NCBI RefSeq assembly: GCF_036997485.1
Contig: NZ_JAWLPU010000005.1
Span: 1-43,969 of the forward strand
Length of the DNA stretch: 43,969 bases
Source of the DNA: Brachyspira pilosicoli
GTDB taxonomy: Bacteria > Spirochaetota > Brachyspiria > Brachyspirales > Brachyspiraceae
Direction of reading: 5' to 3'
In this document: positions 6,001 through 43,969 of the stretch, piece after piece
Layout: every line of letters starts with the position of its first letter
How positions within the stretch are numbered: position 1 is the stretch's first letter
The notes under the pieces: generated by a model
Database searches by the model: none
What the model was told of the DNA's origin: nothing
The model's input: only the letters and a program-made list of their open reading frames with translations
Program-made: the position numbers and the translations under genes

Positions 6001-7885
6001 AGAAGATTTACAAAATGCTGTTAGTGCTAAAGAAGAGTTTAATAAATCTTTAGAAGATAATAAAGATAAGTTAAGAGATGTAGAAGAGAAGATGAATAAC
6101 TTACAAAATGAGTTCTCTCCTTCTATAGAAAAACTTCAAACTATAGTTGAAGAGAAGGCATTGGAGTTGCAAAGTAAAATTGAGTTGTATTCTAAAGATA
6201 TAGAAGAAGAGGGCAATAAGTTTAAAGACAGACTTGAAGAGCTTTCTTCTAATGCTAAAACTTCTTTAGACAATAAAGTTGAGGAATTCGATTCTATAAT
6301 AGAGAATGTTACTAATAGAATAAATGAGCTTTTAGAAGACAAGAATACTCAATTTGATGAATTGAGAACTCAGTATGAAGATATTTCTATTTCATTGTTA
6401 GAATTGAGAGAGTCTATATCTGATGCTGTAAATGAGAGAATAAATGAGGCTAATAGCATTATTGAAGAGGGAGTTGCTAATATAGAACAATCTGCTAATG
6501 ATAAATATGATAAATATATAGCTAGACTTAACTCTAATATGGAGCAGACTTTATCACTGCTTATGAATGATGCTAAAGAGTATGTACAGAATGCTAAAGA
6601 AGAGATATTAAAAGTTCAGTCTTCAAATTTAGATGTTTATGATGAGAGACTTGCAGGTATGAAAAATATTATGTCTGCTTTAGAGGAGGATATAGCTAAG
6701 TATTCTAGTGAGATAGATGCGAGATTGGAAGATATCAATTTGAAGTATGAAGATAAAACTAATGTTATACTCAAAGATTTAGATTCAAGAACTGATAACT
6801 TAACTGAGAAATTAAATGATGTGGTTAATTCTATAGATAAGATGCTTGATGATAAAACTTATGATATAAACAGTGAGTATGAAACATTAAAGATACAGAT
6901 AGAAAATATAGCTAAAGACATAAATAAATATATGGATACTGTAAAAGTATTTGATAAAGCAGAAGAGATGGCACATTTTATTAAAGATGATGTTGCTAAA
7001 TTGGACGTTTTAGTTAATGATACTAAAAATACAGTTTATGATATGAATAAAACTATGTCTGAGTTTGGCGAGCTAAAAAATATGCATGATACTATATTAG
7101 AATATGCTGATATTATTAGAAAAGAAAAAGAGAGCTTGAAGGACACAAAAGAGAAAGTAGATATGCTTGTAGAGATGTCTGAAGAGGTGCAAAATAAGTT
7201 CATGCAAATAGCAGAAAGTAACTCTATGATAGAAAATACTCAAGAGGGTATAAAAGTTGTTATTGATATAGCTTCTCAGATAGAAAATAAACTTTCTATT
7301 ATTAATGATAAAGAAGAGCAGGCTAATACTATATTAGAAAAAGTTAATATAGCTGATAATGAATCTGATGATATATTACAAAAAATTGATACTATAAAAT
7401 CAGCTATGCTTGATATAGAAGATACTAGAAGAGAGTTTTCTGATAAGATGTTTGCTTTAGAGAGAGATATAGCTAAGATAGATAAGAATGACGAAAAAGT
7501 TCAGAAGTTCTTTAGCAAGTTGGAAGAGCTTAATGTTATTATAGAAGAGATACAGAATCAGAGAGAGAATTTAAAATATATGAAGAAGCAGTATGAGGAT
7601 TATGATAACAATATAGTAAAAAATCTTGAGAGAGCTGAATATTTTGTTCGTTATTTAGAGACTCTATTGGATAACGCTGAGAAGTATGTTAATGATGCGG
7701 GTAAGAGTTTAACTAAGAGAGCTAAAACTACTACTAAGATTAATGATAAGAAAGAAAACATTATTATTAATATGTATAAGCAGGGTTGGAAATATGATGA
7801 GATAGTAAAGAATACTTCTTATGACAGAGATGAGGTTGAGAGAGTGATAAAAAAATGGAAAGATGAATCAGCAAGGGGATATTAA
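2..7885 (+). CDS. Giant repetitive coiled-coil protein, 5' end outside window (SpiroCoCo-like)
   Basis: Over 2,600 residues are visible and the frame stays open to the left edge, so the gene starts upstream; the TTG at 38 is only an internal codon. The product is almost entirely charged, Glu/Lys/Asp/Asn/Ser-rich heptad-like helix with no signal peptide or clear membrane span, which suggests a cytoplasmic filament or scaffold. The N-terminal part has two near-identical 40-residue repeats (47-286) and three 30-residue repeats (551-814). A breaker motif of the form FED...Y.D..I recurs near 1769, 2849 and 4907. The last ~45 residues (about 7740-7870) form a compact helix-turn-helix-like unit with the sequence GWKYDEIVKNTSYDRDEVER. 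Long spirochaete coiled-coil proteins of the SpiroCoCo type are the closest family I know, but this assignment is from memory of architecture. Function is unknown; a structural role in cell shape or the cytoplasmic cytoskeleton is inference. Confidence 0.8.
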   Translation, partial: VDNYREGDINRLLSELEEAKNSIENYIKDTDSKKEELLSSMMNELESKEKALYDRLEESKAAIESYIKDTDSKKEELLSSMMNELERKEKAIYDRLEERVGSVESKISSLDEKISNGISKDLEGFYNSLNEAVNNYKSEISSLEANSAELSTDTLNKISEEVKNSYENYVKDLEEVYNNSVSLLEEYSNNLKDELEALREENTEADKNYINEYLEEYSSSLKDELNTLREESRESDKNYVNEYLEEYSNSLREEIERIREENADKNYIDEYLQEYLNNIDSKIEDKFNVLNKAKEELDNIIKNSFDELNSNLNDTISKINENTLNQNERISLVESRLNDYAEQMSKVDEKERLLYEYLDSKISELKTEYESVGKSYEDKFSNIESSILNDEQVALLRDEFANFKNSILESEKTDIPNIFEELKNQFEESFDLFTKEILERVSDSETMISNMQDTIEDEKNNILDKIENFKFELEALKNNDALNELEQERIKLQDTFNSLKADFNKLDELENEVYLLKNNLEGVDGNLRIDVDRLFEEISEFKYSLEYKIDTLEDNSVSKEYFDEEKEKLYSLYDEVNSLNDEFKENINNRVSYFEDNLSDPSRILKLYEDAITPEVNNLKNEIISSLKEQIDEVENGISIWKDDSLYNLLEQLKEAKNNIESFIDSTNDRKESIVEDIVNAVREQIEDRENELNKSLESRIGSINDKVNDLENKLTSDINRFNNMITDAIDKYEDELKNIESYRLEESSSVMKDIDDIGKNIISNYESYRELLNSAYENNYKSLEELCNNLKMEIENAKLDTNKGYIDVYLNDYTSKIDSKLKEQMDSIEKSKETLDNIITDSLNDLNENINNAMSKVMESSEDKINDFINSRELELVNKISSYENNTISKDELSEELRKIEESFELFKSNNNDIFNTLEEYKSKISNIALGLSDIEDNNLNFTSRLEKRIEFFEDSWGNGEKIKELYSDFINEKADNFKSDLEFKFRDSFKEFNSKIDNIEKSFNENINSIIENLDKENLTSNEKIENISKALNNLKSDIEDKIISFEESNNKSKELFNNKLSTFENKMEAFEDRIKDVEDSQHYLNNDISQYVNRLDKVLNDYEEAIDTKINNLKNSLSNDSGHIEHNLISSLELSNELAKDKKELLDSIYELKKDVYDTIEKKDAQMNEEFSKFKTEIIASIPSMQELSDLFVSEKEERANEFEEFRKEMLDSYSENKNFAEMFEEEKNKFIEELDNFKSAVRVEYMSNADKIEAFKDEYLKNFNDMLDKEKANLHYALTEIRKEIEGLKDNSVSLDKFEELMSEYKGNIASSIDDTKEKLSSNISDKDYVSKLFDEEIANINKTIEEFRKDLEENYSPTDVIAEILSKEQVNFENKLSDLKESMLKDIPSLEDISNIFVEEKMSLREEFASLKDDIESKLQDNNYFEDIAEKQKADIKNNFAMLQEEVVGNINNYRDNMINDISNFRDEFANKLSFIEELANSLLQERERIALEVEDIRLKYETGTLYSDDAINSMESDRNRLINEFINFRKSILELIREQDEAMKVLNDEKMSIIDNIDELNKKVSLDLISKDDAISLIDEQKKEILDVLENFKGDSIEADFKYMTEELRDDIIKVFEESNEAFRKRIEARIEHFEDAYSEPEKIKEFYRDAIEAEVDNIKESASHILLDITGNVEKVKKHIDDIENEKVKSIIERIDNAQNEIDAIVDTIKVNLKEQENEIRLLSQSQKLISQDIENVRKEREALIEMVKNSDVNINNKIDSLTSAVIEASDNASQRIAEKELEFNIKIREVEEYISSMEEKIINENNEHLDKSKEAVNNLLASFNESILKETNDLTPHIMKIVNEFVNNEMKKFERFNDVKQAIDEVELTIGEKIDETFKLMNAKLDDTTKELRDNMSSYQDELLSELRNKFNNETNRSIEEVKAMHEEEVTKLKDMYLETEKYYTDRQERSKEDIVALFENTYKEWQDKINSLYSELESTKESMHSSIDTLLEDLQNAVSAKEEFNKSLEDNKDKLRDVEEKMNNLQNEFSPSIEKLQTIVEEKALELQSKIELYSKDIEEEGNKFKDRLEELSSNAKTSLDNKVEEFDSIIENVTNRINELLEDKNTQFDELRTQYEDISISLLELRESISDAVNERINEANSIIEEGVANIEQSANDKYDKYIARLNSNMEQTLSLLMNDAKEYVQNAKEEILKVQSSNLDVYDERLAGMKNIMSALEEDIAKYSSEIDARLEDINLKYEDKTNVILKDLDSRTDNLTEKLNDVVNSIDKMLDDKTYDINSEYETLKIQIENIAKDINKYMDTVKVFDKAEEMAHFIKDDVAKLDVLVNDTKNTVYDMNKTMSEFGELKNMHDTILEYADIIRKEKESLKDTKEKVDMLVEMSEEVQNKFMQIAESNSMIENTQEGIKVVIDIASQIENKLSIINDKEEQANTILEKVNIADNESDDILQKIDTIKSAMLDIEDTRREFSDKMFALERDIAKIDKNDEKVQKFFSKLEELNVIIEEIQNQRENLKYMKKQYEDYDNNIVKNLERAEYFVRYLETLLDNAEKYVNDAGKSLTKRAKTTTKINDKKENIIINMYKQGWKYDEIVKNTSYDRDEVERVIKKWKDESARGY
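47..286 (+). repeat. Tandem 120-base repeat (2 copies) inside the coiled-coil gene
   Basis: Two consecutive 120-base units (47-166 and 167-286) encode near-identical 40-residue blocks that share the core YIKDTDSKKEELLSSMMNEL. They are also very similar at the DNA level. A third unit begins with RLEE at about 287 but diverges. The residues before 47 (ending DINRLLSE) resemble the end of a preceding unit, so more copies may lie to the left of the window. Confidence 0.85.
551..814 (+). repeat. Tandem 90-base repeat (3 copies) inside the coiled-coil gene
   Basis: Units at 551-640, 641-730 and 731-814 encode 30, 30 and 28 residues of the pattern LEEYSxxLKDELxxLREE...DKNYxNEY. The third is shortened by two codons. 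A partial fourth begins with LQEYL at 815. Period and phase match whole coiled-coil turns plus a short linker. Confidence 0.8.
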
Positions 7886-30409: not shown

Positions 30410-31960
30410 TCACTGCTTAATTATTTCATTAAATTTTTCATTCATAGATTTTAAATAATCATCATATTTATTTGATAAATTATAATCAGGTTCTATTACA
30501 GTGTTGTCTATTAATGAGTTTCTAACATCATCTAAAGAAATATTTTCTTCTAATAATACTATAGCACTTATTGAAGAGCCAAGAGATGCTCCTCCAGAAG
30601 GAAGAATTTTTATAGGACATTGCCAAATATTAGCTATTATTTTTAATATTTCTTTATCTTTAGTAGGTCCACCTGTAACAGATAAATCTGCTGCTTTTTT
30701 TTCTGAAGCAAACTTTTTAGAATATGCTGCAACTAATCCTAAAGAGCTTAATACAATGCCTTTATAATCATTATCAAAAGAAGAATTATCATAATACCTT
30801 TTTATATCAAAAGCTTTGCTTATAGGTACAGATTCATTTTCTTTTTGATATATCATGATTGGTAAATTGTCTATATTCTTAGATAATGATTCTGTTATAT
30901 CTTTATAATTTTTATGATACAAGTTCATTATTTCGTCCCAAACCATAGCCCCATTAGTACGGCAGAATATCATAAATGGATTTCCTACACCATCATACAT
31001 AGCATTAGATACACCAGAAAAATCTCTTGTGTTTTCATCTATATTAAGCATATATACAAAGCTTGTTCCTAAAGATAATATATCTCCTTTATATAATACT
31101 TTAGTTTGAGGATTGTCTCCGCTTCCTATGCCTACTAAACAATCTCTGCTAAAACCATATTTTTCTATAAAATATTCAGATATATTTCCAGCCAATTTTG
31201 AAGGGTTTTCTATATTTCCCAATTTTTCCTTTAGATTATTTGATACAGTGTTAAGAAGCTTATCATTCCACTCTTTTTTTGTATAGTCCATCAAACTCAT
31301 ACCAGAAGCATTTCCAAAATCTGTGCTAATATCATCTTTAGCAGTAAGAATAGAAGCTATAAATGTATTAAGCAAAAATACTTTATATGTATTATTTTCT
31401 AATTCTGAATTATTATCAAAATTATATTTTATTACAGCTCCAGTAAATCTAAGAGGGGAGTCTGAGCCTGTTATTTGAATCATATTTTCTTTTCCGCCTA
31501 CACTGTTTCTAAGCTCATCAGCTTCTTTTTTTGTGCAAGAAGTTCTCCAAATAGGTGCGGCATTATATGAATAGGAGTCTTTTAATATTTCTATTAAATT
31601 TTTATTTATATATTCTTTATTTTGCAATTTATTTAAATTCTTTTTGTATTTTTCTGACAAATAGACATGCCCATGCTGTTGAGCGGAAATTTGAATAGCC
31701 TTAATTTCTTTTACATTGCATTTTTCTTTAAGTTCATATAATGCTTTATCTAAAGCTGCTAAAAAAATATTAATATCCTGCTCTGCTTTACCTTCTATTT
31801 TTGAGCCTATAAGCAATGTATTTTTATTCATTGATGAAGTTTTCATTTCTTCCAAAGAATTAAAAGCTACAGAGATATTTAATTCATTTTTATATGTTTT
31901 ATAATTTAAAATACTTAAAGTTAAACTTTGTGTGCTTAAATCTATTCCTAAGGTATACAT
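30410..31960 (-). CDS. xylB: FGGY-family carbohydrate kinase, probable xylulokinase
   Basis: The 516-residue kinase has the N-terminal phosphate motif GIDLSTQSLTLSILN, the substrate-site ISAQQHGHVYL (xylulokinases usually have ISGQMHG), APIWRTS, and the catalytic Asp in GIGSGDNPQT. ADLSVTGGPTKDKEILKIIANIW and LPSGGASLGSSISAIVLL form the C-terminal ATP site. It would phosphorylate D-xylulose made by the isomerase encoded 1.4 kb away. Differences in the substrate motif leave room for another ketose or polyol. It is divergent from the ROK gene, with AGGAT upstream of the ATG, and its promoter is overlapped downstream by the TTAGTAAAATCA element. The functional name rests on family plus neighbourhood. 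Confidence 0.82.
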   Translation of the reverse strand: MYTLGIDLSTQSLTLSILNYKTYKNELNISVAFNSLEEMKTSSMNKNTLLIGSKIEGKAEQDINIFLAALDKALYELKEKCNVKEIKAIQISAQQHGHVYLSEKYKKNLNKLQNKEYINKNLIEILKDSYSYNAAPIWRTSCTKKEADELRNSVGGKENMIQITGSDSPLRFTGAVIKYNFDNNSELENNTYKVFLLNTFIASILTAKDDISTDFGNASGMSLMDYTKKEWNDKLLNTVSNNLKEKLGNIENPSKLAGNISEYFIEKYGFSRDCLVGIGSGDNPQTKVLYKGDILSLGTSFVYMLNIDENTRDFSGVSNAMYDGVGNPFMIFCRTNGAMVWDEIMNLYHKNYKDITESLSKNIDNLPIMIYQKENESVPISKAFDIKRYYDNSSFDNDYKGIVLSSLGLVAAYSKKFASEKKAADLSVTGGPTKDKEILKIIANIWQCPIKILPSGGASLGSSISAIVLLEENISLDDVRNSLIDNTVIEPDYNLSNKYDDYLKSMNEKFNEIIKQ

Positions 31961-32124: not shown

Positions 32125-33270
32125 ATGAAATATCAGTTATTATCAAAAGAGAAGAATTTAAAAAAGATTTTAAGAGAATGCGTAAAAAAAGAGAGATTTA
32201 CAAGTATAGATATAGTTGAAAGTTTGAATCTCACTAAACCTACTGTAAATGAATCATTAGATATTTTGTTTAAGAATGATTTTATTACAAAAGAAGATTT
32301 TACTGCAGGGACAGTAGGCAGGAAAGCTCAAATTTGGAAAACAACACTTTATAAGAAGAAGTCTCTTGCAATAGATATAGATTTTAATTTAGTAAAAATT
32401 GCTATAGTTGATATGTCTGGAAATTATTCGTATTACAAAGAATATAATAAAAGCATCAACAATGATAATTTTTTTAATGTTATAAGTTTTGTAGTTAAAG
32501 ATTATAGAGAAAATTTTAAAGAAGCTTGTGATATAAAAAGTTTAGGCATATCAATACCTGGTAATATTAGTTTTGATAGAAAGAATATATTATATGCTAC
32601 TAATTTGGGATTAAAAAATATTAACGTAAATAATTTAGAAGAAGAACTAAATTTGGAGATAATTTTAGAAAATGAGGCTAATAGTGCAGTATTATGTGAG
32701 TTTTTTTTATCTAAGGAAACAGATAAAGATAATTACATGCTTATATCAATATCGAATTTTGGAGTAGGCGGAGGGCAGATAGTTGATGGTAAATTATTAA
32801 AGGGAGCTCATAGACTTGCAGGAGAGATTGGTCATTTTACTATCATTATGGACGGAGAACTTTGTACTTGCGGCAACAGGGGGTGTTTTGAAAGGTATGC
32901 TTCTTATGACGGACTTAAAAACATAATGAAAAAACACCAGCTTGGCTTTGATGATATTAATAAACTTTTTGAAAGTTATGATAAAAATGCAGAAAATGTT
33001 ATAAGAGAATATTGTAAATTTTTAGGAAGAGGGATAAGAAGTTTGCTTGCTATATATGACTCCAATAAAATTATATTAAGCGGTAAAATAACTGATTATT
33101 GGAGTAGGATTTATCCTTATATGCAAAAAGAAATATTTGAAAATAATAACTTTTATTCAAAATTTAATATTATGATTATTAAATCGAAATTTGGCGATAA
33201 ATCATCATTGGTTGGAGTTGGGCTTATAAATTTTTTTGATTTACTATATGATAAAGATATTTTTTCTTAA
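32125..33270 (+). CDS. xylR: ROK-family transcriptional repressor, XylR-like
   Basis: The 381-residue protein has an N-terminal winged helix (about 10-70, with FTSIDIVESLNLTKPTVNES as the helix-turn-helix) and a ROK sugar-binding domain. The domain includes SLAIDIDFNLVKIAIVDMSG, SLGISIPGNIS, ENEANSAVLCE and GEIGHFTI, and the ROK zinc motif CTCGNRGCFERYAS near residue 250. ROK repressors with this architecture include XylR, which leaves its operators when xylose binds. Position between xylB (divergent) and xylA supports that role; the exact inducer is inference. The ribosome site is weak (TTGAAG). Confidence 0.85.
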   Translation: MKYQLLSKEKNLKKILRECVKKERFTSIDIVESLNLTKPTVNESLDILFKNDFITKEDFTAGTVGRKAQIWKTTLYKKKSLAIDIDFNLVKIAIVDMSGNYSYYKEYNKSINNDNFFNVISFVVKDYRENFKEACDIKSLGISIPGNISFDRKNILYATNLGLKNINVNNLEEELNLEIILENEANSAVLCEFFLSKETDKDNYMLISISNFGVGGGQIVDGKLLKGAHRLAGEIGHFTIIMDGELCTCGNRGCFERYASYDGLKNIMKKHQLGFDDINKLFESYDKNAENVIREYCKFLGRGIRSLLAIYDSNKIILSGKITDYWSRIYPYMQKEIFENNNFYSKFNIMIIKSKFGDKSSLVGVGLINFFDLLYDKDIFS

Positions 33271-33407: not shown

Positions 33408-34721
33408 ATGGAATATTTTAAAAGTGTTGATAAAGTATCCTATAAAGGAAAAGATAGTAAAGATGCTTTTTCATTCAAACAATATAACGCTTCAGAAGTT
33501 ATAGCAGGAAAAACTATGGAAGAATGGATGCCTTTTGCAATGAGTTGGTGGCATACATTAGCAGCTGGAAGTTCAGATCCTTTTGGAGCTCCTGCAGCAA
33601 CTAGACCTTGGAATGGAAAAGAGGCTTTAGAAGCTTCTAAGATGAGAGTAGAGGCTGGATTTGAGCTTATGCAAAAATTGGGAATGAATTATTTTTGTTT
33701 CCATGATAGAGATTTAGCTCCTGAATATAAAACTCTAAAAGAGACTAATGAAAAATTAGATATGATAGTAGATTTAGTACAAGAGAGTATGTCTAAAACT
33801 GGTAAAAAACTTTTATGGGCTACTTCATCTTTATTTACAAACCCTAGATATATGCATGGTGCAGCTACAAGTCCTTATGCTGATGTGTATGCATTTGCAG
33901 CTGCTCAAACTAAAAAGACTATGGATATAGCTAAAAAATTAGATGCCAAAGGCTATGTATTTTGGGGCGGCAGAGAAGGTTATGAAACTTTACTTAATAC
34001 TAATATGAAAAGAGAATTAGATCATTTAGCTTATTTCTTGTCTATGGCAGTTGAATATAAAGAAAAAATAGGATTTAAAGGACAATTCTTTATTGAACCA
34101 AAACCAAAAGAGCCAACAAAACATCAATACGATTTTGATGCGGCTACTACATTAGAGTTTTTATATCATTATAATTTGGATAAATATTTTGAGCTTAATT
34201 TGGAAGTGAATCATGCCACTTTAGCAGGACATACTATGCAGCATGAGATGCAGGTTGCTAGAAATCATGGAAAATTGGGTTCAGTTGATATTAACTATGG
34301 AGATACTTTCTTAGGTTGGGATACAGATATGTTCCTTACAAATGTTTATGATGCAGTTTTAATGATGGTAGAGATTATAAAAAACGGAGGACTAAAAAAC
34401 GGAGGATTCAATTTTGATGCTAAAGTTAGAAGACCATCTCATACTATGGACGATTTAATGTATGCCTATATTGCTGGAATGGACACTTTAGCTTGGGGGT
34501 TAAGAATAGCAGATAAAATAGTTAAAGATGGATGTTTCGATAAATTCATTGAAGAAAGATATAGCTCATATAATAGCGGAATAGGCGCAAAAATAGAAAG
34601 CAAAGCAACTTCATTGGAAGAATTATATGATTATGCTCTTGCTTTAGAAGAAAAAGAACTTCCTAGCGGAAATCAGGAATTACTTGAAGCTAAATTAAAT
34701 CAATTTATTTATAATCTATAA
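33408..34721 (+). CDS. xylA: Xylose isomerase (class II)
   Basis: The 437-residue enzyme converts D-xylose to D-xylulose (and glucose to fructose weakly) with two divalent metals. The sequence carries SWWHTLAAGSSDPFG, the catalytic-His motif FCFHDRDLAPE (near residue 100), YVFWGGREGYETLLNTN, the metal-binding FIEPKPKEPTKHQYDFD (about 232-248), LEVNHATLAGHTMQHE and GSVDINYGDTFLGWDTD. Length and the N-terminal extension are those of class II enzymes. No signal peptide is present, so it is cytoplasmic. It is the first gene of the probable xylA-binding protein-permease-GH31 operon, behind the inverted-repeat operator. Assignment is secure. Confidence 0.97.
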   Translation: MEYFKSVDKVSYKGKDSKDAFSFKQYNASEVIAGKTMEEWMPFAMSWWHTLAAGSSDPFGAPAATRPWNGKEALEASKMRVEAGFELMQKLGMNYFCFHDRDLAPEYKTLKETNEKLDMIVDLVQESMSKTGKKLLWATSSLFTNPRYMHGAATSPYADVYAFAAAQTKKTMDIAKKLDAKGYVFWGGREGYETLLNTNMKRELDHLAYFLSMAVEYKEKIGFKGQFFIEPKPKEPTKHQYDFDAATTLEFLYHYNLDKYFELNLEVNHATLAGHTMQHEMQVARNHGKLGSVDINYGDTFLGWDTDMFLTNVYDAVLMMVEIIKNGGLKNGGFNFDAKVRRPSHTMDDLMYAYIAGMDTLAWGLRIADKIVKDGCFDKFIEERYSSYNSGIGAKIESKATSLEELYDYALALEEKELPSGNQELLEAKLNQFIYNL

Positions 34722-34743: not shown

Positions 34744-35955
34744 ATGAAAAGAATTATTTTGTTATTTATCTCTATATTTTTATTTGCTATAAGTTGTGCT
34801 GATTCTTCTTCTGCAGATAGTAATGGTAAGCAGACAGTTACAATTTGGCATTATTTTTCAGAACCAGATATAGGAGCTTTTTTAAAGTACATAGATGAAT
34901 ATAATAAATTACAAGATAAATATTTTGTAAAAGCTCAATATGTACCAAGAGAAGAATTATTAAAACAATATGCAATAGGTTCTGTTGCAGGAGAACTTCC
35001 AGATATAGGTATGATAGATAATCCAGATCAGGCATCTTTTTCTAAAGCAGGTTTATTTGAAGATATTACAGATAGATTTAATGCTTGGGATGATAATAAA
35101 TTTTTGGAAGGTCCTTTAAACTCAGCAATGTATGAAGGAAAAATATATGGGCTTCCTCAAGCTATAACTTGCTTAGCATTATATTATGATAAAGATGCTT
35201 TTGAAGAGAATAATTTAGAAGTTCCTACAAATTGGACACAATTAGAGGAAGCTGCTAAAGTTCTTACTACAGCTGATAGAAAAGGTATAGCTTGGAGCGG
35301 AATAAAGAATGAAGAAGGTACTTTCCAATTATTACCTTGGATAATATCAGCAGGCGGAAATATAAACAAAATAAATAGCCCTGAAGCTGTTAAGGCATTA
35401 ACATATTTAACAGACTTAGTAAAAAATGGATATGCTAGTAAAGAATTGTTAATATGGGGACAAGGAGATGTGGAAAAACAATTTAATTCTGGTAAAGCAG
35501 CTATGATGATAAATGGAAACTGGATGATACCTTCTGTAACAAAAAATGCTCCAGATAAAAATTGGGGAGTTGCAAAAATTCCTATGGATAAGAAGTATGC
35601 TTCAGTATTAGGCGGAGAGAACTTTACTATAATTAAAGGTAAAAATGTTGAGGGTGCTTGGGATTTCTTAACTTGGTTTATAAGTACAGAAATATCAGAA
35701 AGATATTGTAAAGAAATAGGCAAATTCTCACCTAAAGCAGATGTAAATATAGATACTATGTATGGTGATGACCCTATAATGAAAGTATTTGCTGAACAAG
35801 TACAATATACTGTTCCTAGAGGTCCTCATACAAAATGGCCTGAAATATCATCTGCAATTATAAATGCTGAACATGAGAGTATTACATTAAATAAAACTCC
35901 TCAGCAGGCTTTAGATGAAGCTCAAGCTAAAATAGATCAAATTAATAAAGAGTAA
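34744..35955 (+). CDS. ABC sugar transporter solute-binding lipoprotein, copy 1 (CUT1)
   Basis: The 403-residue protein has a lipoprotein signal peptide ending FLFAISC (Cys18) and the extracellular solute-binding family 1 fold: VTIWHYFSEPDIGAF, GELPDIGMIDNPDQASF, GLFEDITDRF, IYGLPQAITCLALYYDKDAFE, WTQLEEAAKVL, KAAMMINGNWMIPS and VLGGENFTI. It would capture an oligosaccharide or xyloside at the outer face of the inner membrane and pass it to the permeases encoded downstream. A strong AGGAG site (34731-34735) precedes it. It is followed 25 bases later by a close paralogue; the middle of the two genes is almost identical at DNA level. Substrate is inferred from the GH31 and xylose genes. Confidence 0.93.
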   Translation: MKRIILLFISIFLFAISCADSSSADSNGKQTVTIWHYFSEPDIGAFLKYIDEYNKLQDKYFVKAQYVPREELLKQYAIGSVAGELPDIGMIDNPDQASFSKAGLFEDITDRFNAWDDNKFLEGPLNSAMYEGKIYGLPQAITCLALYYDKDAFEENNLEVPTNWTQLEEAAKVLTTADRKGIAWSGIKNEEGTFQLLPWIISAGGNINKINSPEAVKALTYLTDLVKNGYASKELLIWGQGDVEKQFNSGKAAMMINGNWMIPSVTKNAPDKNWGVAKIPMDKKYASVLGGENFTIIKGKNVEGAWDFLTWFISTEISERYCKEIGKFSPKADVNIDTMYGDDPIMKVFAEQVQYTVPRGPHTKWPEISSAIINAEHESITLNKTPQQALDEAQAKIDQINKE

Positions 35956-35980
35956 TTAATATAAAAAAAGAGGTAATAAT

Positions 35981-37204
35981 ATGAAAAAATATTTTTATCT
36001 AATAATATTAATAGTATCATTTTTGCTTAGTTGCGGTGCACAAAAAGAAGAAGGTGCAACTGAAGGAAATAAACAAGTTATAACACTTTGGCATTATTTT
36101 TTTGAACCAGATGTTACACATTTTTTAGCATATATAGATAAATATAATGAGTCTCAAGATAAATATTTTGTAAAGCCTCAATTTATTCCAAGAGAAGAAT
36201 TATTAAAACAGTATGCTATGGGTTCTGTTGCAGGAGAACTTCCAGATATAGGCATGTTAGATAATCCAGATCAGGCATATTTTTCTAAAGCAGGTCTTTT
36301 TGAAGATATTACAGATAGATTTAATGCTTGGGATGATAATAAATTTTTAGATGGTGCTATAAACTCCGCTATATATGATGGAAAAATATATGGTTTGCCA
36401 ATATCTATAAATTGTTTAGCTTTATTTTATGATAAAGATGCTTTTGAAGAGAATAATTTAGAAGTTCCTACAAATTGGACACAATTAGAAGAAGCTGCTA
36501 AAGTTCTTACTACAGCTGATAGAAAAGGTATAGCTTGGAGCGGAATAAAGAATGAAGAAGGTACTTTCCAGTTATTACCTTGGATAATATCAGCAGGCGG
36601 AAATATAAACAAAATAAACAGCCCAGAATGTGTAAAAGCTTTAACATTTTTAACTGATTTAGTAAAAAATGGATATGCTAGTCAAGAGTTATTAGTTTTA
36701 GGTCAAAGCGATTTAGATAAATCATTTAATGTTGGAAAAACAGCTATGATGATAAACGGACCTTGGATAATGGCTTCCATAAGAAAGAATGCCCCTGATA
36801 AAAATTGGGGAGTTGCAAAAATTCCTATGGATAAACAATATGCTTCAGTGTTAGGCGGAGAGAATTTCGCTATAATTAAAGATAAAAATATTGAGGGTGC
36901 TTGGGATTTCTTAACTTGGTTCTTAAGCACAGAAGTATCTCAAAACTATTGTAAGGATATAGAAAAATTTTCTCCAAAAGTTAATGTTGATATAGATACT
37001 ATGTATGGTGATGACCCTATAATGAAGGTATTTGCAGATCAAATTAAATATGCTATGCCAAGGGGTCCGCATCCTAAATGGCCTGAAATATCATCTATTA
37101 TTATAAATGCTGAACATGAAAGTATTACATTTAATAAAACCCCTCAGCAGGCTTTAGATGAAGCTCAGGCTAAAATAGATGAGATAAATGCTTCTATTAA
37201 TTAA
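35981..37204 (+). CDS. ABC sugar transporter solute-binding lipoprotein, copy 2 (CUT1)
   Basis: The 407-residue paralogue of the preceding gene has signal peptide lipobox FLLSC (Cys18) and the same family 1 fold. Differences concentrate in the N-terminal ~50 mature residues and in predicted ligand-side loops: PISINCLALFY for PQAITCLALYY, GQSDLDKSFNVGKTAMMINGPWIMAS for GQGDVEKQFNSGKAAMMINGNWMIPS, and AIIKDK for TIIKGK. This suggests related but not identical ligands, or different affinity. A purine-rich AGAGGTAATAAT site precedes the ATG. A stable hairpin follows before the permease genes. The same role as copy 1 is expected. Confidence 0.92.
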   Translation: MKKYFYLIILIVSFLLSCGAQKEEGATEGNKQVITLWHYFFEPDVTHFLAYIDKYNESQDKYFVKPQFIPREELLKQYAMGSVAGELPDIGMLDNPDQAYFSKAGLFEDITDRFNAWDDNKFLDGAINSAIYDGKIYGLPISINCLALFYDKDAFEENNLEVPTNWTQLEEAAKVLTTADRKGIAWSGIKNEEGTFQLLPWIISAGGNINKINSPECVKALTFLTDLVKNGYASQELLVLGQSDLDKSFNVGKTAMMINGPWIMASIRKNAPDKNWGVAKIPMDKQYASVLGGENFAIIKDKNIEGAWDFLTWFLSTEVSQNYCKDIEKFSPKVNVDIDTMYGDDPIMKVFADQIKYAMPRGPHPKWPEISSIIINAEHESITFNKTPQQALDEAQAKIDEINASIN

Positions 37205-37225: not shown

Positions 37226-37265
37226 ACTCGTTAGTTATATATGTTTTTATATATAACTAATGAGT
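37226..37265 (+). terminator. Intercistronic hairpin between binding-protein and permease genes
   Basis: A 17-base-pair stem (37226-37242 with 37249-37265, one G-T pair) with loop GTTTTT is followed by a broken T-run (TTATAATTT). It is probably a partial terminator or an mRNA stabiliser that lets the binding proteins be made in excess over the permeases. Confidence 0.6.
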
Positions 37266-37288: not shown

Positions 37289-38179
37289 ATGAAAAAAAAT
37301 AAAAAAGTTAATATGTATGAGATGCTATTTGTAATACCAGCACTTGTTTATATGTTGATATTTGTTGGCTACCCAATTATATATAATGTTGTGTTAAGTT
37401 TTCAAGACACTACACTTATGAATATAGGAGCTGCTTCAAAGAAATTTATAGGCTTTGAAAATTATAAGACAATATTTTCTTCTCCTGTAATCTTTATAAC
37501 TATAAAAAACACATTGTTTTATACAATAATGTGCTTAATTATACAATTTTCTATTGGTTTTTTAATGGCATTATTTTTTAATTTAAAATTTAGAATAGCA
37601 GGATTTTTGAAAGGTATCATAATTATAAGCTGGATGATGCCAACAATAGCCACAGCATTAGTATTTAAATTTATGCTTTCAGAAACTGGGGTTATTAATA
37701 ATTATTTGTCTATTTTAGGTATAATAAAAGAACCTGTTTTATGGCTTTCTAATCAAACTACAGCTATGTGGGGATTAATATTAGCAAATTCTTGGGTAGG
37801 TATTCCTTTTAATATGCTTTTACTATCTACAGGCCTTTCTAATATTCCGGAAAGTATTATTGAAAGTGCAAAAATAGATGGTGCTGTAGCTTGGCAAAGA
37901 TTATTATTTATAGTTGTACCTATGATAAAACCTGCTATTTTATCTGTTTTAGTTCTTGGATTTGTTTATACTTTTAAAGTTTTTGACTTGGTATTTACAA
38001 TGACTGCAGGCGGTCCGGTTAATTCAACTGAAGTGTTATCTACTTACTCATATTTGCTTTCTTTTAAATATTACTATTTTAGCCAAGGAGCATCTGTTGC
38101 AAATATATTGGCTTTATTTTTAATGGTTATTAGTTTTATATATGTGAGATTGACTTCAAAAGAGGAGGTAGGAGAATGA
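37289..38179 (+). CDS. ABC sugar transporter permease 1 (MalF/UgpA-type)
   Basis: The 296-residue protein has six predicted membrane helices, the first at about 12-32 (MLFVIPALVYMLIFVGYPIIY). The cytoplasmic EAA loop near residue 190 reads ESAKIDGAVAWQRLLFIVVPMIKPA, the coupling motif that contacts the ATPase. VFDLVFTMTAGGPVNSTEVLSTY near the C-terminus is typical of CUT1 permeases. It pairs with permease 2, whose start overlaps its stop by 4 bases (ATGA). Substrate is as for the binding proteins. Confidence 0.94.
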   Translation: MKKNKKVNMYEMLFVIPALVYMLIFVGYPIIYNVVLSFQDTTLMNIGAASKKFIGFENYKTIFSSPVIFITIKNTLFYTIMCLIIQFSIGFLMALFFNLKFRIAGFLKGIIIISWMMPTIATALVFKFMLSETGVINNYLSILGIIKEPVLWLSNQTTAMWGLILANSWVGIPFNMLLLSTGLSNIPESIIESAKIDGAVAWQRLLFIVVPMIKPAILSVLVLGFVYTFKVFDLVFTMTAGGPVNSTEVLSTYSYLLSFKYYYFSQGASVANILALFLMVISFIYVRLTSKEEVGE

Positions 38180-39012
38180 AAATAAAAAAAGAACTATTAA
38201 GAGAAATTATTTTAAGTGCTATTGGTATATTAATTACATGTGTATTTTTATTTCCACTATTAATAATACTTTTTAGCTCATTAAAAACAGAAGCTGAAAT
38301 ATTTTCATCAAATATGACTCTTTTACCAAAAAAAATAGATATTTCTAGTTATATAGATCAATTTAAAAATTTTAATATTTTAAGAGCGTTTTTAAATTCA
38401 TTTATCATAGCTTTATTTTCTACAATGTTATCATTAATGTTGTCAATACCATGCTCTTATGGTTTGGCAAGATACAATATACCATTGAAAAAATCTATTC
38501 TTTTGGTATTTTTATTAACGCAATTATTGCCAACATCGTTAATTCTAACCCCGCTTTTTATAATGTTTACAAAATTAAAATTAATAAACTCTTATGTAGG
38601 ACCTATATTGGCTACGGCTACTGTTTCAATTCCTTTTACTATACTAATAATGAGAACTATATTTATAAAAGCGCCTAAAGAACTTGAGGAGGCAGGAAAA
38701 ATAGATGGATGTACTTCATTTCAAACTTTTATAAAAATATTTTTGCCAATATCAAAACCCGGATTGATAACAGCTGCATCATTTTCTTTCATAATGGCTT
38801 GGAATGATTTAATATTTTCTATGACATTTAATAACAATGCTAATTTAAGACCTATGACTGCAGGAATATATAATTTTATGTCTACTTATGGTACTCAATG
38901 GAATAGAATAATGGCTTATGCAGTTCTACTTGTATTGCCTGTGGTTGTAATTTTTGTTCTTTTACAAAAATATATAGTTGGCGGGCTTTTAGAGGGCTCT
39001 GTAAAAGGATAA
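38176..39012 (+). CDS. ABC sugar transporter permease 2 (MalG/UgpE-type)
   Basis: The 278-residue protein has about six membrane helices, SSLKTEAEIF after the first helix, and SIPCSYGLARYNIP in the second. The EAA loop is EEAGKIDGCTSFQTFIKIFLPISKPG near residue 170-195, followed by MAWNDLIFSMTFN. The C-terminus QKYIVGGLLEGSVKG is the classic MalG-family ending. The start overlaps the stop of permease 1, a common sign of coupled translation of equimolar subunits. Together they form the channel of the importer. Confidence 0.95.
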   Translation: MKIKKELLREIILSAIGILITCVFLFPLLIILFSSLKTEAEIFSSNMTLLPKKIDISSYIDQFKNFNILRAFLNSFIIALFSTMLSLMLSIPCSYGLARYNIPLKKSILLVFLLTQLLPTSLILTPLFIMFTKLKLINSYVGPILATATVSIPFTILIMRTIFIKAPKELEEAGKIDGCTSFQTFIKIFLPISKPGLITAASFSFIMAWNDLIFSMTFNNNANLRPMTAGIYNFMSTYGTQWNRIMAYAVLLVLPVVVIFVLLQKYIVGGLLEGSVKG

Positions 39013-39056: not shown

Positions 39057-41342
39057 ATGAAATTTTTAAATGGAATGTGGGAAATAAAAAAAGGTGTAAA
39101 ACTTAATAGAGTAAGACATGTATTTGAAATTCATAATAATGGTAATTCACTTACTATTATTGCTCCAACTGTATTGGTAAAACAGAATGCTGATACATTA
39201 AATATTGCATTATTAACAATTAACATATCTTCACCTTTAGAAGATGTTATTAAATTAAAAGCTACACATCATGATGGCAAATTAGATAAAGGGCCTCATT
39301 TTGAAATTTATGAAAAAACAAATGTAAAAGTTTCAATAGAAGAAACAGAAGAGTATGTAAAGTTTACTTCAGGAAAAACTAGTGTTTTAATAAAAAAAGG
39401 CGATGCATGGTCTATGACATATTCTTATGATGGAAAATATTTGACTTCAAGCGAAGAACATGGACTTGCTTATATAATAGATGAAAATGGTAATTCTCAT
39501 ATTAGAGAGATGTTAAATATAGCTCCTACAGAATGTATTTATGGATTAGGTGAACGATTTACTGCTTATGTAAAAAATGGACAAACTGTAAATATGTGGA
39601 ATGAAGACGGAGGTACTTGTACAGAGATAGCTTATAAAAATGTACCTTTCTTTATTTCAAATAGGAAATATGGTGTTTTAGTAAATGACAGTGGCCCTGT
39701 TTCTTATGAGATTGGAACAGAAGTTGTATCAAAAACACAATTTTCTATTCAAGATGAATCATTAGAATATTATTTTATAGCTTCTAAATCAATGAAAGGA
39801 GTTATTGAAAATTATACAACTTTAACAGGAAAACCTGCACTTCCTCCTGCTTGGTCTTTTGGTTTATGGCTTAGCACATCTTTTACTACTGATTATGATG
39901 AGAAAGTAGTTAATTCTTTTATAGATGGAATGATAGATAGAAATATACCATTAAATGTATTCCATTTTGACTGTTTTTGGATGAAGCCTTTTAGATGGTG
40001 TAATATGGAGTTTGATGATAAAAATTTTAAAGATCCTGTATCTTTCCTTTCTAATATAAAATCTAAAGGAATAAAGATATGCGTATGGATAAATCCTTAT
40101 GTAGGACAGCTTTCTAGTATGTTTGAAGAAGGTAAAAAAAATGGCTATTTCATAAAAAAAACAAATGGAGATGTTTGGCAATGGGATATGTGGCAAGCGG
40201 GAATGGCTGTTGTAGATTTTACTAACCCTGAAGCTTGCAAATGGTATGCTAGTAAATTGGAAAAATTAGTAGACATGGGAGTTGATACATTCAAAACAGA
40301 TTTTGGTGAAAGAATACCTTGGGAGGATGTTGTTTATTATGGCGGAGAAGATCCTTTAAAAATGCATAATTATTATACTCATTTATATAATCAATGTGTA
40401 TTTGGCGTTTTAGAAAAGAAATTTGGAAAAGATAAGGCTTTAGTTTTTGCTCGTTCTGGTACTGCTGGCGGACAAAAATTCCCTGTACATTGGGGTGGAG
40501 ATTCTACAGCAACTTATGAATCTATGGCTGAAACTTTAAGAGGAGGGCTTTCTTTAGCTATGAGTGGTTATTCTTTTTGGAGCCATGATATAAGCGGTTT
40601 TGAAACAACTGCAACTCCTGATTTATATAAAAGATGGGTTGCTTTTGGATTATTATCTTCTCACAGCAGACTTCATGGATCTAAAAGTTATAGGGTGCCT
40701 TGGAATTTTGATGAAGAATCTGTAGATGTGCTTAGAAAATTTACTAATTTAAAATGTGAATTAATGCCTTATATTTATTCAACTTCAATTAATGCTCATA
40801 TCACAGGTATACCAGTTTTGAGAAGTATGATAATGGAATTTGAAGATGATTTGTCATGCAGATACTTAGATTTACAATATATGTTCGGGGATAATATATT
40901 GGTAGCTCCAGTATTTAACGATGAAAGCATTGCTAATTATTATTTGCCTAAGGGAAAATGGACTAATATATTAAATAATAAATTATATAATTGTGAAGAT
41001 ACTGGAAAATGGATAGAAGAAAAACATGATTATATGAGTGTTCCTATATTAGCTAAAGAAAATTCTGTAATTGCTTTTGGAAATAATAATAAATTATGTG
41101 ACTATGAATATATGGATAACATTAATTATCATATATATGAACCTTTAAATAATATTGAGACAAAAATATTTAATTCTGATACTTCATTAGCTTGTGAAGT
41201 TAATGTGAAAAGAGAAGCAAATGCAATAAAAATTACAGTTACTAATGCCCCTTATGCTTGGAAAGCTACTTTACATTTAAATGGTAAAATACAAGTTTTA
41301 GAGGCTAAAAAAGATCAAAAAGAATTAGTATTTAATATATAA
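39057..41342 (+). CDS. yicI: GH31 alpha-xylosidase, YicI type
   Basis: The 761-residue cytoplasmic enzyme (E. coli YicI is 772) has an N-terminal beta-sandwich, the GH31 TIM barrel from about residue 260, and C-terminal beta domains. The catalytic nucleophile is Asp ~415 in FKTDFGERIPW, and the acid/base Asp ~482 lies in VHWGGDSTATYESM. Both the positions and the KTDFGERIP context match YicI closely. FHFDCFWMKPFRWC and WSHDISGFE complete the active site. YicI removes alpha-1,6-linked xylose from isoprimeverose and the non-reducing ends of xyloglucan oligosaccharides. No signal peptide is present, so the substrate must be imported. AAGGAGA precedes the ATG, 44 bases after the permease gene. 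Confidence 0.93.
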   Translation: MKFLNGMWEIKKGVKLNRVRHVFEIHNNGNSLTIIAPTVLVKQNADTLNIALLTINISSPLEDVIKLKATHHDGKLDKGPHFEIYEKTNVKVSIEETEEYVKFTSGKTSVLIKKGDAWSMTYSYDGKYLTSSEEHGLAYIIDENGNSHIREMLNIAPTECIYGLGERFTAYVKNGQTVNMWNEDGGTCTEIAYKNVPFFISNRKYGVLVNDSGPVSYEIGTEVVSKTQFSIQDESLEYYFIASKSMKGVIENYTTLTGKPALPPAWSFGLWLSTSFTTDYDEKVVNSFIDGMIDRNIPLNVFHFDCFWMKPFRWCNMEFDDKNFKDPVSFLSNIKSKGIKICVWINPYVGQLSSMFEEGKKNGYFIKKTNGDVWQWDMWQAGMAVVDFTNPEACKWYASKLEKLVDMGVDTFKTDFGERIPWEDVVYYGGEDPLKMHNYYTHLYNQCVFGVLEKKFGKDKALVFARSGTAGGQKFPVHWGGDSTATYESMAETLRGGLSLAMSGYSFWSHDISGFETTATPDLYKRWVAFGLLSSHSRLHGSKSYRVPWNFDEESVDVLRKFTNLKCELMPYIYSTSINAHITGIPVLRSMIMEFEDDLSCRYLDLQYMFGDNILVAPVFNDESIANYYLPKGKWTNILNNKLYNCEDTGKWIEEKHDYMSVPILAKENSVIAFGNNNKLCDYEYMDNINYHIYEPLNNIETKIFNSDTSLACEVNVKREANAIKITVTNAPYAWKATLHLNGKIQVLEAKKDQKELVFNI

Positions 41343-41373: not shown

Positions 41374-43362
41374 ATGTTTGGTTTTCAAATTTTAGAAGAT
41401 CGTGTTTATTGGCGAAATAAAGGGGAAACTATTTGTTTAGAGCCATACGGTGAAAACACAATAAGGTTTAGAGGTATTAATGCTAATAATGTTATAGAAG
41501 AAAATTGGACTCTTCTTCCTAAAAAGAATAGCGATTTTAAAATTATTGATCAAAAAGATAAAGTTGTAATTAAGAATGGAAAAATATCAGTAGAGATATT
41601 AGAAAATGGAACTATAAATTACATGAATGCTAATTCTGAATATATTCTAAAAGAGTATTGGATAGATGAAAGAGAGCTTACTATAAAATTAAGAGATGCA
41701 AGAACATATAAAATGGTTACAAGTGATGTGTTTGAAGGAAGAGTATATTTTAAGCCTAATGATAAAGAACATTTTTATGGTATGGGTTCTTATCAGCATA
41801 ATATATTTGATTTAAAAGGCTCTACTATAGAATTATGTCATAAAAACACACAATCATCTATACCTTTTTTCTATTCTTCGTTGGGATATGGTTTTGTATG
41901 GAATAATCCAGCTGTTGGAAAAGCTGAATTAGTAAAAAATCATACGATGATTAAAGCAGAGCGTACAAAGCAGTTAGATTATTTAATATTTGCTGGAGAT
42001 AATCCAAATGAAATAGTAACTAATTTATCAAAACTATACGGACAAACTCCAATGTTGCCGGAATGGGCAGCTGGTTTTTGGCAATGTAAATTACGCTATG
42101 AAACACAGGAAGAGGTATTAAATATTGCTAGAGAGCATAAAAAAAGAAATATACCTTTATCTGTTATAGTTATAGATTTCTTTCACTGGACAGAACAGGG
42201 TGAATGGAAATTTGACCCTAAGGCTTTTCCAAATCCTAAAGCTATGGTAGATGAATTAAATGAAATGGGAATAAAACTAATGGTTTCTATTTGGCCAACT
42301 GTTGACCCTAAAAGTGAGAATTATCAATATATGGTAAAAAATAATTATATAGTACGCTCAGAAGTAGGCGTTCCTGTATTCTTAATGTTTTTAGGACCTG
42401 AAACATATTATGATGCTACTAATAGCGAAGCTAGGGAATATGTATGGAATATTGTAAAAAAGAATTACTATGATTTTGGAATAAAAACTTTTTGGTTAGA
42501 TGAAGCTGAACCAGAAATTAAACCTAGTGATTACTCTAATTTAAGATATTGTATTGGAAATGGATTGGAAGTAACTAATATATATCCATATTATTATGCT
42601 AAAACTTTTTATGATGGCATGAAGCAGCAGGGTGAAAGTGATGTGGTCAATTTAATTAGATGTAACTGGCTTGGTTCCCAAAAATATGGAACTGTTGTTT
42701 GGTCTGGTGATATACCATCTACATACGAGTCTATGCTTAAACAGATTAAAATAGTTATGAGTATGGCTATGTGTGGTATGTCATGGTGGACTATGGATAT
42801 AGGTGGCTTTTTTGGAGGGGATGCTAATTCTGAAGAGTTTAGAGAGTTATTTGTTAGATGGTTTCAATTTGGAGCTTTCTGTCCAATATTTAGAAATCAT
42901 GGTTTTAGATTGTCGCAAATAAATACTTCTGATTGCAATAGCGGCGGACCTAATGAATTATGGAGTTATGGTGAAGATAATTATAAAATATTATTAAAAT
43001 ACACTTTAATTAGAGAAAGATTAAAACCATATATAATGAAACTCATGAAAGAAACTCATGAATTTGGAACTCCTGTTGTTAGACCTCTATTTTATGAATA
43101 TTATAAAGATGAAGAAACTTTTTTAATAGAAGATCAATATATGTTTGGAGATTCTATTTTAGTAGCGCCTATATATAAAGAAAAAACAGAAAGCAGAGAT
43201 GTTTATTTACCTAAAAATTCTAAATGGATATATGTATGGAATAACAAAGAGTATGAGGGAGGACAATATATTAAAGTAGAAGCAGATATTAGTAAAATTC
43301 CTCTATTTGTTAAAAATACAGATGAAGGAAAAGAATTGAGAAAATTGATAGTAGAAGAATAA
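41374..43362 (+). CDS. Second GH31 family glycosidase, alpha-xylosidase-like (XylS/XylQ type)
   Basis: The 662-residue protein lacks a signal peptide. The nucleophile is Asp ~376 in TFWLDEAEPE and the acid/base Asp ~446 in VVWSGDIPSTYESM. WTMDIGGFFGG and RWFQFGAFCPIFRNHG follow. The WLDEAEP context is that of the XylS/Xyl31-type alpha-xylosidases rather than the KTDFGE group, so this is a different GH31 branch from its upstream neighbour. Lactobacillus XylQ, which acts on imported isoprimeverose, is a plausible functional relative (from memory). Alternative activities, such as alpha-glucosidase on an unusual linkage, cannot be excluded. AAAGGAG precedes the start, 31 bases after the first GH31 gene. 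It is the last gene before a terminator-like hairpin. Confidence 0.85.
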   Translation: MFGFQILEDRVYWRNKGETICLEPYGENTIRFRGINANNVIEENWTLLPKKNSDFKIIDQKDKVVIKNGKISVEILENGTINYMNANSEYILKEYWIDERELTIKLRDARTYKMVTSDVFEGRVYFKPNDKEHFYGMGSYQHNIFDLKGSTIELCHKNTQSSIPFFYSSLGYGFVWNNPAVGKAELVKNHTMIKAERTKQLDYLIFAGDNPNEIVTNLSKLYGQTPMLPEWAAGFWQCKLRYETQEEVLNIAREHKKRNIPLSVIVIDFFHWTEQGEWKFDPKAFPNPKAMVDELNEMGIKLMVSIWPTVDPKSENYQYMVKNNYIVRSEVGVPVFLMFLGPETYYDATNSEAREYVWNIVKKNYYDFGIKTFWLDEAEPEIKPSDYSNLRYCIGNGLEVTNIYPYYYAKTFYDGMKQQGESDVVNLIRCNWLGSQKYGTVVWSGDIPSTYESMLKQIKIVMSMAMCGMSWWTMDIGGFFGGDANSEEFRELFVRWFQFGAFCPIFRNHGFRLSQINTSDCNSGGPNELWSYGEDNYKILLKYTLIRERLKPYIMKLMKETHEFGTPVVRPLFYEYYKDEETFLIEDQYMFGDSILVAPIYKEKTESRDVYLPKNSKWIYVWNNKEYEGGQYIKVEADISKIPLFVKNTDEGKELRKLIVEE

Positions 43363-43502: not shown

Positions 43503-43540
43503 AATATTAAATATCTAAAATTATTTCTTGGAGATATATT

Positions 43541-43969
43541 ATGTCTAGTATAAAATTTGAGCATGTAAAAAAAGTATATGACAACAAAGTTGAGGTAGTT
43601 AAAGACTTTAGTTTGGATATAGCTGATAAAGAGTTTGTAATTCTTGTAGGTCCTTCAGGCTGCGGTAAATCTACAACTTTACGTATGATAGCTGGTCTTG
43701 AAGAGATTACAGATGGTAAACTTTATATTGGAGATAGACTCATAAATGATGTAGCTCCAAAAGACAGAGATATTGCTATGGTGTTTCAGAACTATGCCTT
43801 ATATCCGCACATGTCTGTATTTAAGAACATGGCTTTTGGGTTGGAACTTAGAAAAACTCCAAAAGATGAAATTAAGAAAAGAGTTGAATGGGCAGCACAA
43901 GTACTTGATATAGCTCATTTGCTTGACAGAAAACCTAAGGCATTATCTGGCGGTCAGCGTCAAAGGGTA
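43541..43969 (+). CDS. ABC transporter ATPase, MsmX/UgpC/MalK type, cut by right edge
   Basis: The first 143 codons are present. They contain the A-loop region [19 protein letters not shown], Walker [17 protein letters not shown] (near residue 38), the Q-loop [20 protein letters not shown], and the start of the signature LSGGQRQR at the window edge. Walker B and the regulatory C-terminal domain lie outside. This is the class that energises CUT1 importers; [18 protein letters not shown] is typical. TTGGAGA (43528-43534) is the ribosome site. It follows the permease/GH31 operon but after a hairpin and with its own possible promoter. That fits a shared ATPase serving several sugar importers as well as the neighbouring one. 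Confidence 0.92.

Follow-up and report, generated by a model that had tools for sequence, protein, structure and literature searches.

Gene content of the locus and its relatives

The window analyzed here is a whole stretch of 43,969 nucleotides from Brachyspira pilosicoli. Two genes encoding sugar ABC substrate-binding lipoproteins (SBP-A and SBP-B) lie head to tail with a gap of 25 bp, embedded in the gene order ROK–xylA–SBP-A–SBP-B–MalF–MalG–alpha-xylosidase (Table 1). By its sequence, SBP-A has a cysteine at residue 18, preceded by a lipobox-like stretch. A 2615-codon open reading frame was further observed at the contig start (window positions 38–7885).

Table 1. Positions of genes, sequence tracts, and a stem-loop in the window.
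Feature	Position	Strand	Support
Xylulokinase-like FGGY kinase, divergently transcribed	30410..31960	-	Pfam FGGY_N; NCBIfam XylB below cut-off
ROK-family regulator, probable XylR/NagC-type repressor	32125..33270	+	Pfam ROK 3.1e-48
Xylose isomerase XylA	33408..34721	+	TIGR02630 653.9 bits, cut-off 533
SBP-A, sugar ABC substrate-binding lipoprotein	34744..35955	+	SBP_bac_8 1.7e-36; 403 aa
Tract 1 (weaker), SBP-A copy	34978..35103	+	96.0% A–B identity over 126 bases; dS 0.08
Divergent island parting tract 1 from main tract	35104..35183	+	76.5% A–B identity
Main homogenized tract, SBP-A copy	35184..35385	+	A–B identity, dS, silent scan
SBP-B, tandem paralogue of SBP-A	35981..37204	+	SBP_bac_8 8.1e-34; 407 aa
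Tract 1, SBP-B copy	36221..36346	+	Alignment register, offset 1243
Main homogenized tract, SBP-B copy	36427..36628	+	A–B alignment
18-bp perfect stem-loop between SBP-B and MalF	37226..37265	+	Fold -23.6 kcal/mol, z -5.75
MalF-type permease	37289..38179	+	BPD_transp_1
MalG-type permease	38176..39012	+	BPD_transp_1
GH31 alpha-xylosidase (YicI type)	39057..41342	+	NF007940 1170.9 bits, cut-off 606
Second GH31 enzyme, alpha-glucosidase/alpha-xylosidase-like	41374..43362	+	Family matches
MsmK/UgpC-type ATPase start, cut by contig end	43541..43969	+	99% over 143 aa to the G016 ATPase

The components of a CUT1-type importer could be identified, i.e., an SBP_bac_1/8 binding protein (both copies over the Pfam cut-offs), two MalF/MalG-type permeases (BPD_transp_1), and a MalK/MsmK-type ATPase, which is partial here and complete in the genome G016, where it belongs to the UgpC subfamily and scores over the NF008653 cut-off. 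The best NCBIfam relatives of the permeases are GlcT/GlcU, UgpA/UgpE, and MalF/MalG, all below the equivalog cut-offs. An assignment of SBP-A and SBP-B as MalE was rejected, with 56.8 and 72.6 bits against NF007011 (cut-off 291). The gene order fits the original prediction that two binding proteins feed one permease pair: SBP-A and SBP-B would both deliver their cargo to a single MalF/MalG permease, with energy from a shared MsmK-type ATPase, and the substrate range might be broadened as predicted. The stem-loop between SBP-B and MalF is probably a partial terminator or an mRNA-protecting hairpin, and hairpins of such kind commonly allow the binding protein to be in excess over the permease. 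The same gap in the G016 operon holds a different, 14-bp stem with a z-score of only -1.8.

Judging from the neighboring genes, the importer would probably take up alpha-xylosyl oligosaccharides, either isoprimeverose or fragments of xyloglucan. The YicI-type enzyme would cleave the imported alpha-xylosides in the cytoplasm, and the xylose would pass to XylA and XylB. A report on xyloglucan uptake in Ruminiclostridium cellulolyticum describes a similar cluster of an ABC importer and a GH31 alpha-xylosidase with cytoplasmic xylose release; that system, however, relies on a single SBP with affinity for XXXG but not for isoprimeverose, and also includes GH3 and GH42 enzymes (PMC4780118). Paralogous sugar-binding proteins within one genome are likewise known from the Thermotoga mal1/mal2 operons, but these are whole operons that have been attributed to horizontal transfer, not to tandem duplication (PMC2246101).

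G016 carries a syntenic operon with the same gene order and a single SBP. In a phylum sample of 392 genomes, seven matched the SBP at 1e-40, including the window's own genome (G000) and G016. In three outgroup loci (L047, L048, and L049), a lone SBP precedes MalF, MalG, and a large enzyme, the last being confirmed as GH31 in L047 and L048, the two tested. Judged by ORF lengths and sequence starts, L051 comprises an SBP and two permease-like neighbors, and L050 is arranged differently. No relatives were found on viral contigs, those on plasmid records were all below 60% identity, and a contig scan returned 14 distant loci, none of them from the genus.

Several genomes share a xylB/ROK/xylA scaffold (window 33408–34721; L022 and L041–L046), and the cassette following xylA varies. 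It consists of a sugar importer plus GH31 in G000 and G016, of XylFGH-type genes in G009 (families tested) as well as G005 and G021 (by ORF pattern), and of a different importer together with a large enzyme in G004 and likewise in G017, where the permease and SBP were seen; none was seen in G012. Regarding other observations in the window's own genome, the window (43536–43968) and the end of a second contig (L057, G000:C2) both terminate within the 5′ part of an MsmK-type ATPase gene, with 98.8% identity over 433 bp, which suggests that two near-identical ATPase genes broke the assembly. At G000:C3:400438–401160, an SBP_bac_8 match is interrupted by a single in-frame TGA and possibly represents a decayed binding-protein gene.

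Identity between SBP-A and SBP-B and comparison with an orthologue

In the codon alignment, SBP-A and SBP-B are identical at 1007 of 1209 bases (83%) and 317 of 403 residues (79%), and thus form a tandem pair of common ancestry within one genome, as interlocus gene conversion demands of its partners. Positions 35188–35385 and 36431–36628 agree at 194 of 198 bases and 66 of 66 residues, with all four differences silent, and the counts given for this segment in the original prediction were exact. Identity amounts to 345/444 bases and 103/148 residues 5′ of 35188, and to 468/567 bases and 148/189 residues 3′ of 35385. The description of the ends as divergent applies to both flanks but is incomplete, since divergence is also found internally, in the island between the two tracts. 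The longest run with at most three mismatches comprises 198 bases starting at 35184 and was matched by none of 5000 codon shuffles (shuffle maximum 143); the main tract is best delimited at 35179/35184 to 35373/35385. By block, the dS between the copies was 0.76 (N part), 0.67 (island), and 0.62 (C part), but 0.08 in tract 1 and 0.11 in the main tract, revealing one background divergence and two young patches. Outside the tracts the dS was 0.66, i.e., roughly sixfold higher than in the main tract.

SBP orthologues (E < 1e-30) were present in two of 26 genus genomes, namely as two copies in the window's own genome and as a single copy in G016, so that the comparison uses G016 as its single orthologue among these 26 (A, B, and G in the following denote SBP-A, SBP-B, and the G016 orthologue). 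Base identity in the main tract was 98.0% for A–B, 85.1% for A–G, and 84.1% for B–G, and the tract is thus about as distant from the orthologue as the remainder of the gene (C part: A–G 83.8%, B–G 80.1%). On the residue level, A–B identity was 100% compared to 83.6% with G. All 11 variable residues of the main tract pair A with B, compared to 22 of 106 in the flanks (Fisher 2e-7, for a tract picked after data inspection). A middle segment grouping by orthologue would have spoken against the gene conversion originally proposed for the duplicated pair; the opposite was obtained, A and B agreeing against G at every one of these residues, and the sixfold lower silent divergence upholds the proposal as well. 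Trees of the three sequences did not reach significance for this grouping.

Identity of the middle might also be maintained by purifying selection alone, acting on a structural core or a permease contact without recombination. Silent divergence from the orthologue is indeed somewhat reduced across the tract (pS 0.37 vs. 0.54), and the region is in part more constrained. We nevertheless rejected this explanation and consider it quite unlikely, as inside the tract the G016 orthologue departs from the two copies at 11 of 67 residues and roughly 15% of bases, and selection on the protein leaves a count of only two silent differences in 61 codons unexplained. These codons were delimited by a silent-codon scan with no preset window, which selected 35179–35373 (2/61 codons differing vs. 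58/300 overall, p = 0.014); a secondary window at 34840–35103, which takes in tract 1, reached p = 0.08. The same scan of A–G and B–G yielded no low-divergence window. A GENECONV-like permutation over 319 variable sites gave p = 1e-4, the smallest value obtainable, and on silent sites alone p-values of 0.79, 0.047, and 0.15 with 0, 2, and 4 mismatches allowed, respectively. None of the 3SEQ-like silent tests fell below 0.05. The A–B contrast is strong when all sites are used and moderate when only silent ones are. The A–G dS of 0.79 is not unusual, because the orthologue dS of neighboring genes spans 0.31 to 1.09.

The mosaic very probably arose by recent interlocus gene conversion between young tandem duplicates, as far as the sequences of the pair and its orthologue allow us to judge. 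A sugar-binding lipoprotein gene in a xylose/alpha-xyloside operon would have been duplicated in tandem, and later homologous recombination would have copied roughly 190–200 bp (35179/35184 to 35373/35385) from one neighbor to the other, in either direction, presumably by RecA-type interlocus gene conversion. Tract 1 probably reflects another conversion event, either earlier or shorter. As for the position in the middle of the gene, conserved stretches most likely stay similar enough for recombination, while fast-evolving ends would escape it.

The reverse course of events, in which a very recent duplication had its ends replaced by import from another strain or species and the middle is original, would equally leave a dS of about 0.1 in the remaining patches. 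It appears very unlikely, given that at least three imports (N part, island, and C part) with near-equal dS are needed and that B-like ends are absent from all other 25 genus genomes. We also considered that the ends of SBP-B were driven to rapid change after a recent duplication, in the absence of conversion. Outside the tracts, 43 residues changed in SBP-B alone compared to 16 in SBP-A alone (p = 0.0006), as such asymmetric selection would predict, but selection on the protein does not produce the silent contrast between the tract and its surroundings, which makes this explanation extremely improbable. Silent sites unique to either copy outside the tracts were equally frequent (21 and 21); SBP-B therefore accumulates protein changes more quickly, through selection that is either relaxed or positive, and is probably specializing.

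Flank dS was 0.66 for A–B, compared to 0.96 and 0.86 to G016, and silent distances thus place A and B nearest to each other, whereas by protein distance SBP-A is nearer to G016 than to SBP-B. Protein trees of A, B, and G with five outgroups rejected no order of the duplication relative to the split between G000 and G016 (AU 0.06–0.6).

Ligand-site positions

SBP aligned to MalE with an hhalign probability of 99.4 (E 7e-22), making 12 pocket positions alignable. In this alignment, the MalE pocket residues E111, W62, and R66 are not kept in the SBPs. A and B differ at four of the 12 mapped positions (43, 44, 91, and 142), compared to 63 of the 361 remaining ones (Fisher p = 0.24). The main tract contains four further pocket positions (A residues 192–195), at which A, B, and G016 have the same residue. 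The idea that ligand-site loops were left free to diverge is therefore not supported as stated, because the pocket is not significantly more different than the remainder and the tract itself holds pocket residues. It is plausible that a single key position has changed: residue 142 of SBP-A, the equivalent of MalE E111, lies in the island and is T in A but N in B, G016, and the four outgroups shown. An AlphaFold2 model of SBP-A, built from six sequences, was poor (mean pLDDT 62.6).

Tandem binding-protein arrays elsewhere in the genus

Among the matches listed, a PF13416 search of 26 genomes showed that many of these genomes contain SBP genes in tandem arrays, and 27 array regions were chosen by eye from these matches. 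Neighboring same-strand ORFs with at least 42% identity were compared, yielding 68 pairs; these include three pairs of ~850-aa ORFs in L062, which are not SBPs, and one 99.6% identical pair was left out. On silent codons alone, 18 of the 68 pairs reached p < 0.05 and 9 of the 68 reached p < 0.01, where pairs from one array are not independent. At least one significant silent low-divergence window was present in 9 of 27 arrays. Most of these windows lie mid-gene, and three of the nine arrays (G021, G014:C17, and G022b) have theirs elsewhere in the gene. No silent tract was seen in most of the 27 arrays, among them almost every array of the second, 350-aa type.

The best sister array type comprises 21 copies from seven genomes in arrays of two to four SBPs; its best NCBIfam relative is PhnS2, below the cut-off, and one ATPase and one double-domain permease follow downstream in the three loci checked. 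Sister arrays L069, L071, L075, L084, and L088 encode binding proteins of ~340 aa with a homogenized segment at codons 120–220. Within- and between-genome identities were 0.769 and 0.771 in the N part, 0.930 and 0.894 at codons 120–212, and 0.798 and 0.793 in the C part. The middle is hence both more constrained and more concerted, and its high nucleotide conservation between genomes is a point in favor of purifying selection. Trees required 16 (N), 12 (middle), and 13 (C) changes of genome label, and shuffles were as good or better in 976, 29, and 119 of 1000 cases, respectively, counts that are somewhat favorable since the limits of the middle were taken from the same data. For G001, grouping by genome was rejected in the N part (AU 0.0013) and the C part (0.011), and grouping by array position was rejected in the middle (AU 0.0025). 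For G017, the N and C parts likewise reject grouping by genome, and the middle prefers it (AU 0.074 for position).

In the sister arrays, the ends thus group by array position, which would also suit imported ends, and the middle groups by genome. By these AU tests, a tract groups by genome unlike the remainder of the gene, as expected under conversion, and the sister arrays are independent support for mid-gene conversion in SBP arrays of the genus. Gene conversion is a known process, and its recurrence across the arrays is the added value here. The sugar SBPs and the array family aligned with an hhalign probability of only 22%, and a structural correspondence of their homogenized segments is a lead.

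Concerted evolution in prokaryotes has been surveyed for 26 whole genes over long times (PMC6053082). According to that survey, within-genome paralogues are more alike than between-species orthologues, as in our pair; in contrast to whole genes over long times, a segment alone is affected here, in a young pair. The clustered paralogous bitABC genes of Brachyspira hyodysenteriae, which encode iron-binding and not sugar-binding lipoproteins, show patchy differences in the same genus: bitA is reported as nearly identical between strains except for bases 104–392 (73%), and bitB/bitC vary at residues 4–32 and 93–120 (PMC4973917). The section describing these patches does not name recombination, and they hint at what patchwise recombination would give. 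Another spirochaete, Borrelia burgdorferi, uses several paralogous binding proteins (OppA1-5) with one main permease, though for oligopeptides, and the passages describing this make no mention of conversion among the oppA copies (PMC7822543). Among the matches listed, a literature search restricted to open-licence papers returned none that describes gene conversion among Brachyspira binding-protein genes.

Partial conversion generates mosaic binding proteins, of which one part is held in common and the rest diverges, and mosaic SBP genes mislead gene trees and strain typing based on them. Such conversion also offers a workable way to ask whether it is confined to mid-gene by sequence similarity alone or by the docking of several SBPs on one permease, a question that can be tested by comparison, because the pattern recurs in several unrelated arrays of one genus. 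More tentatively, and with doubt prevailing, tandem binding-lipoprotein arrays could form a standing diversity system in which the middle (first hinge strand into lobe 2) is recurrently homogenized inside every genome and the N and C parts are kept diverse. If so, the shared middle would keep all copies fitting one permease; the ends, perhaps shuffled between array positions and strains, would vary ligand choice or surface epitopes; and the most recent example of the system would be the xylose pair.

Regarding other array members, two tandem SBP ORFs at L063 (2087–3409 and 3582–4904, G012:C32) are 99.6% identical, with a third neighbor at 73%. This pair is either a very recent duplication or a whole-gene conversion.
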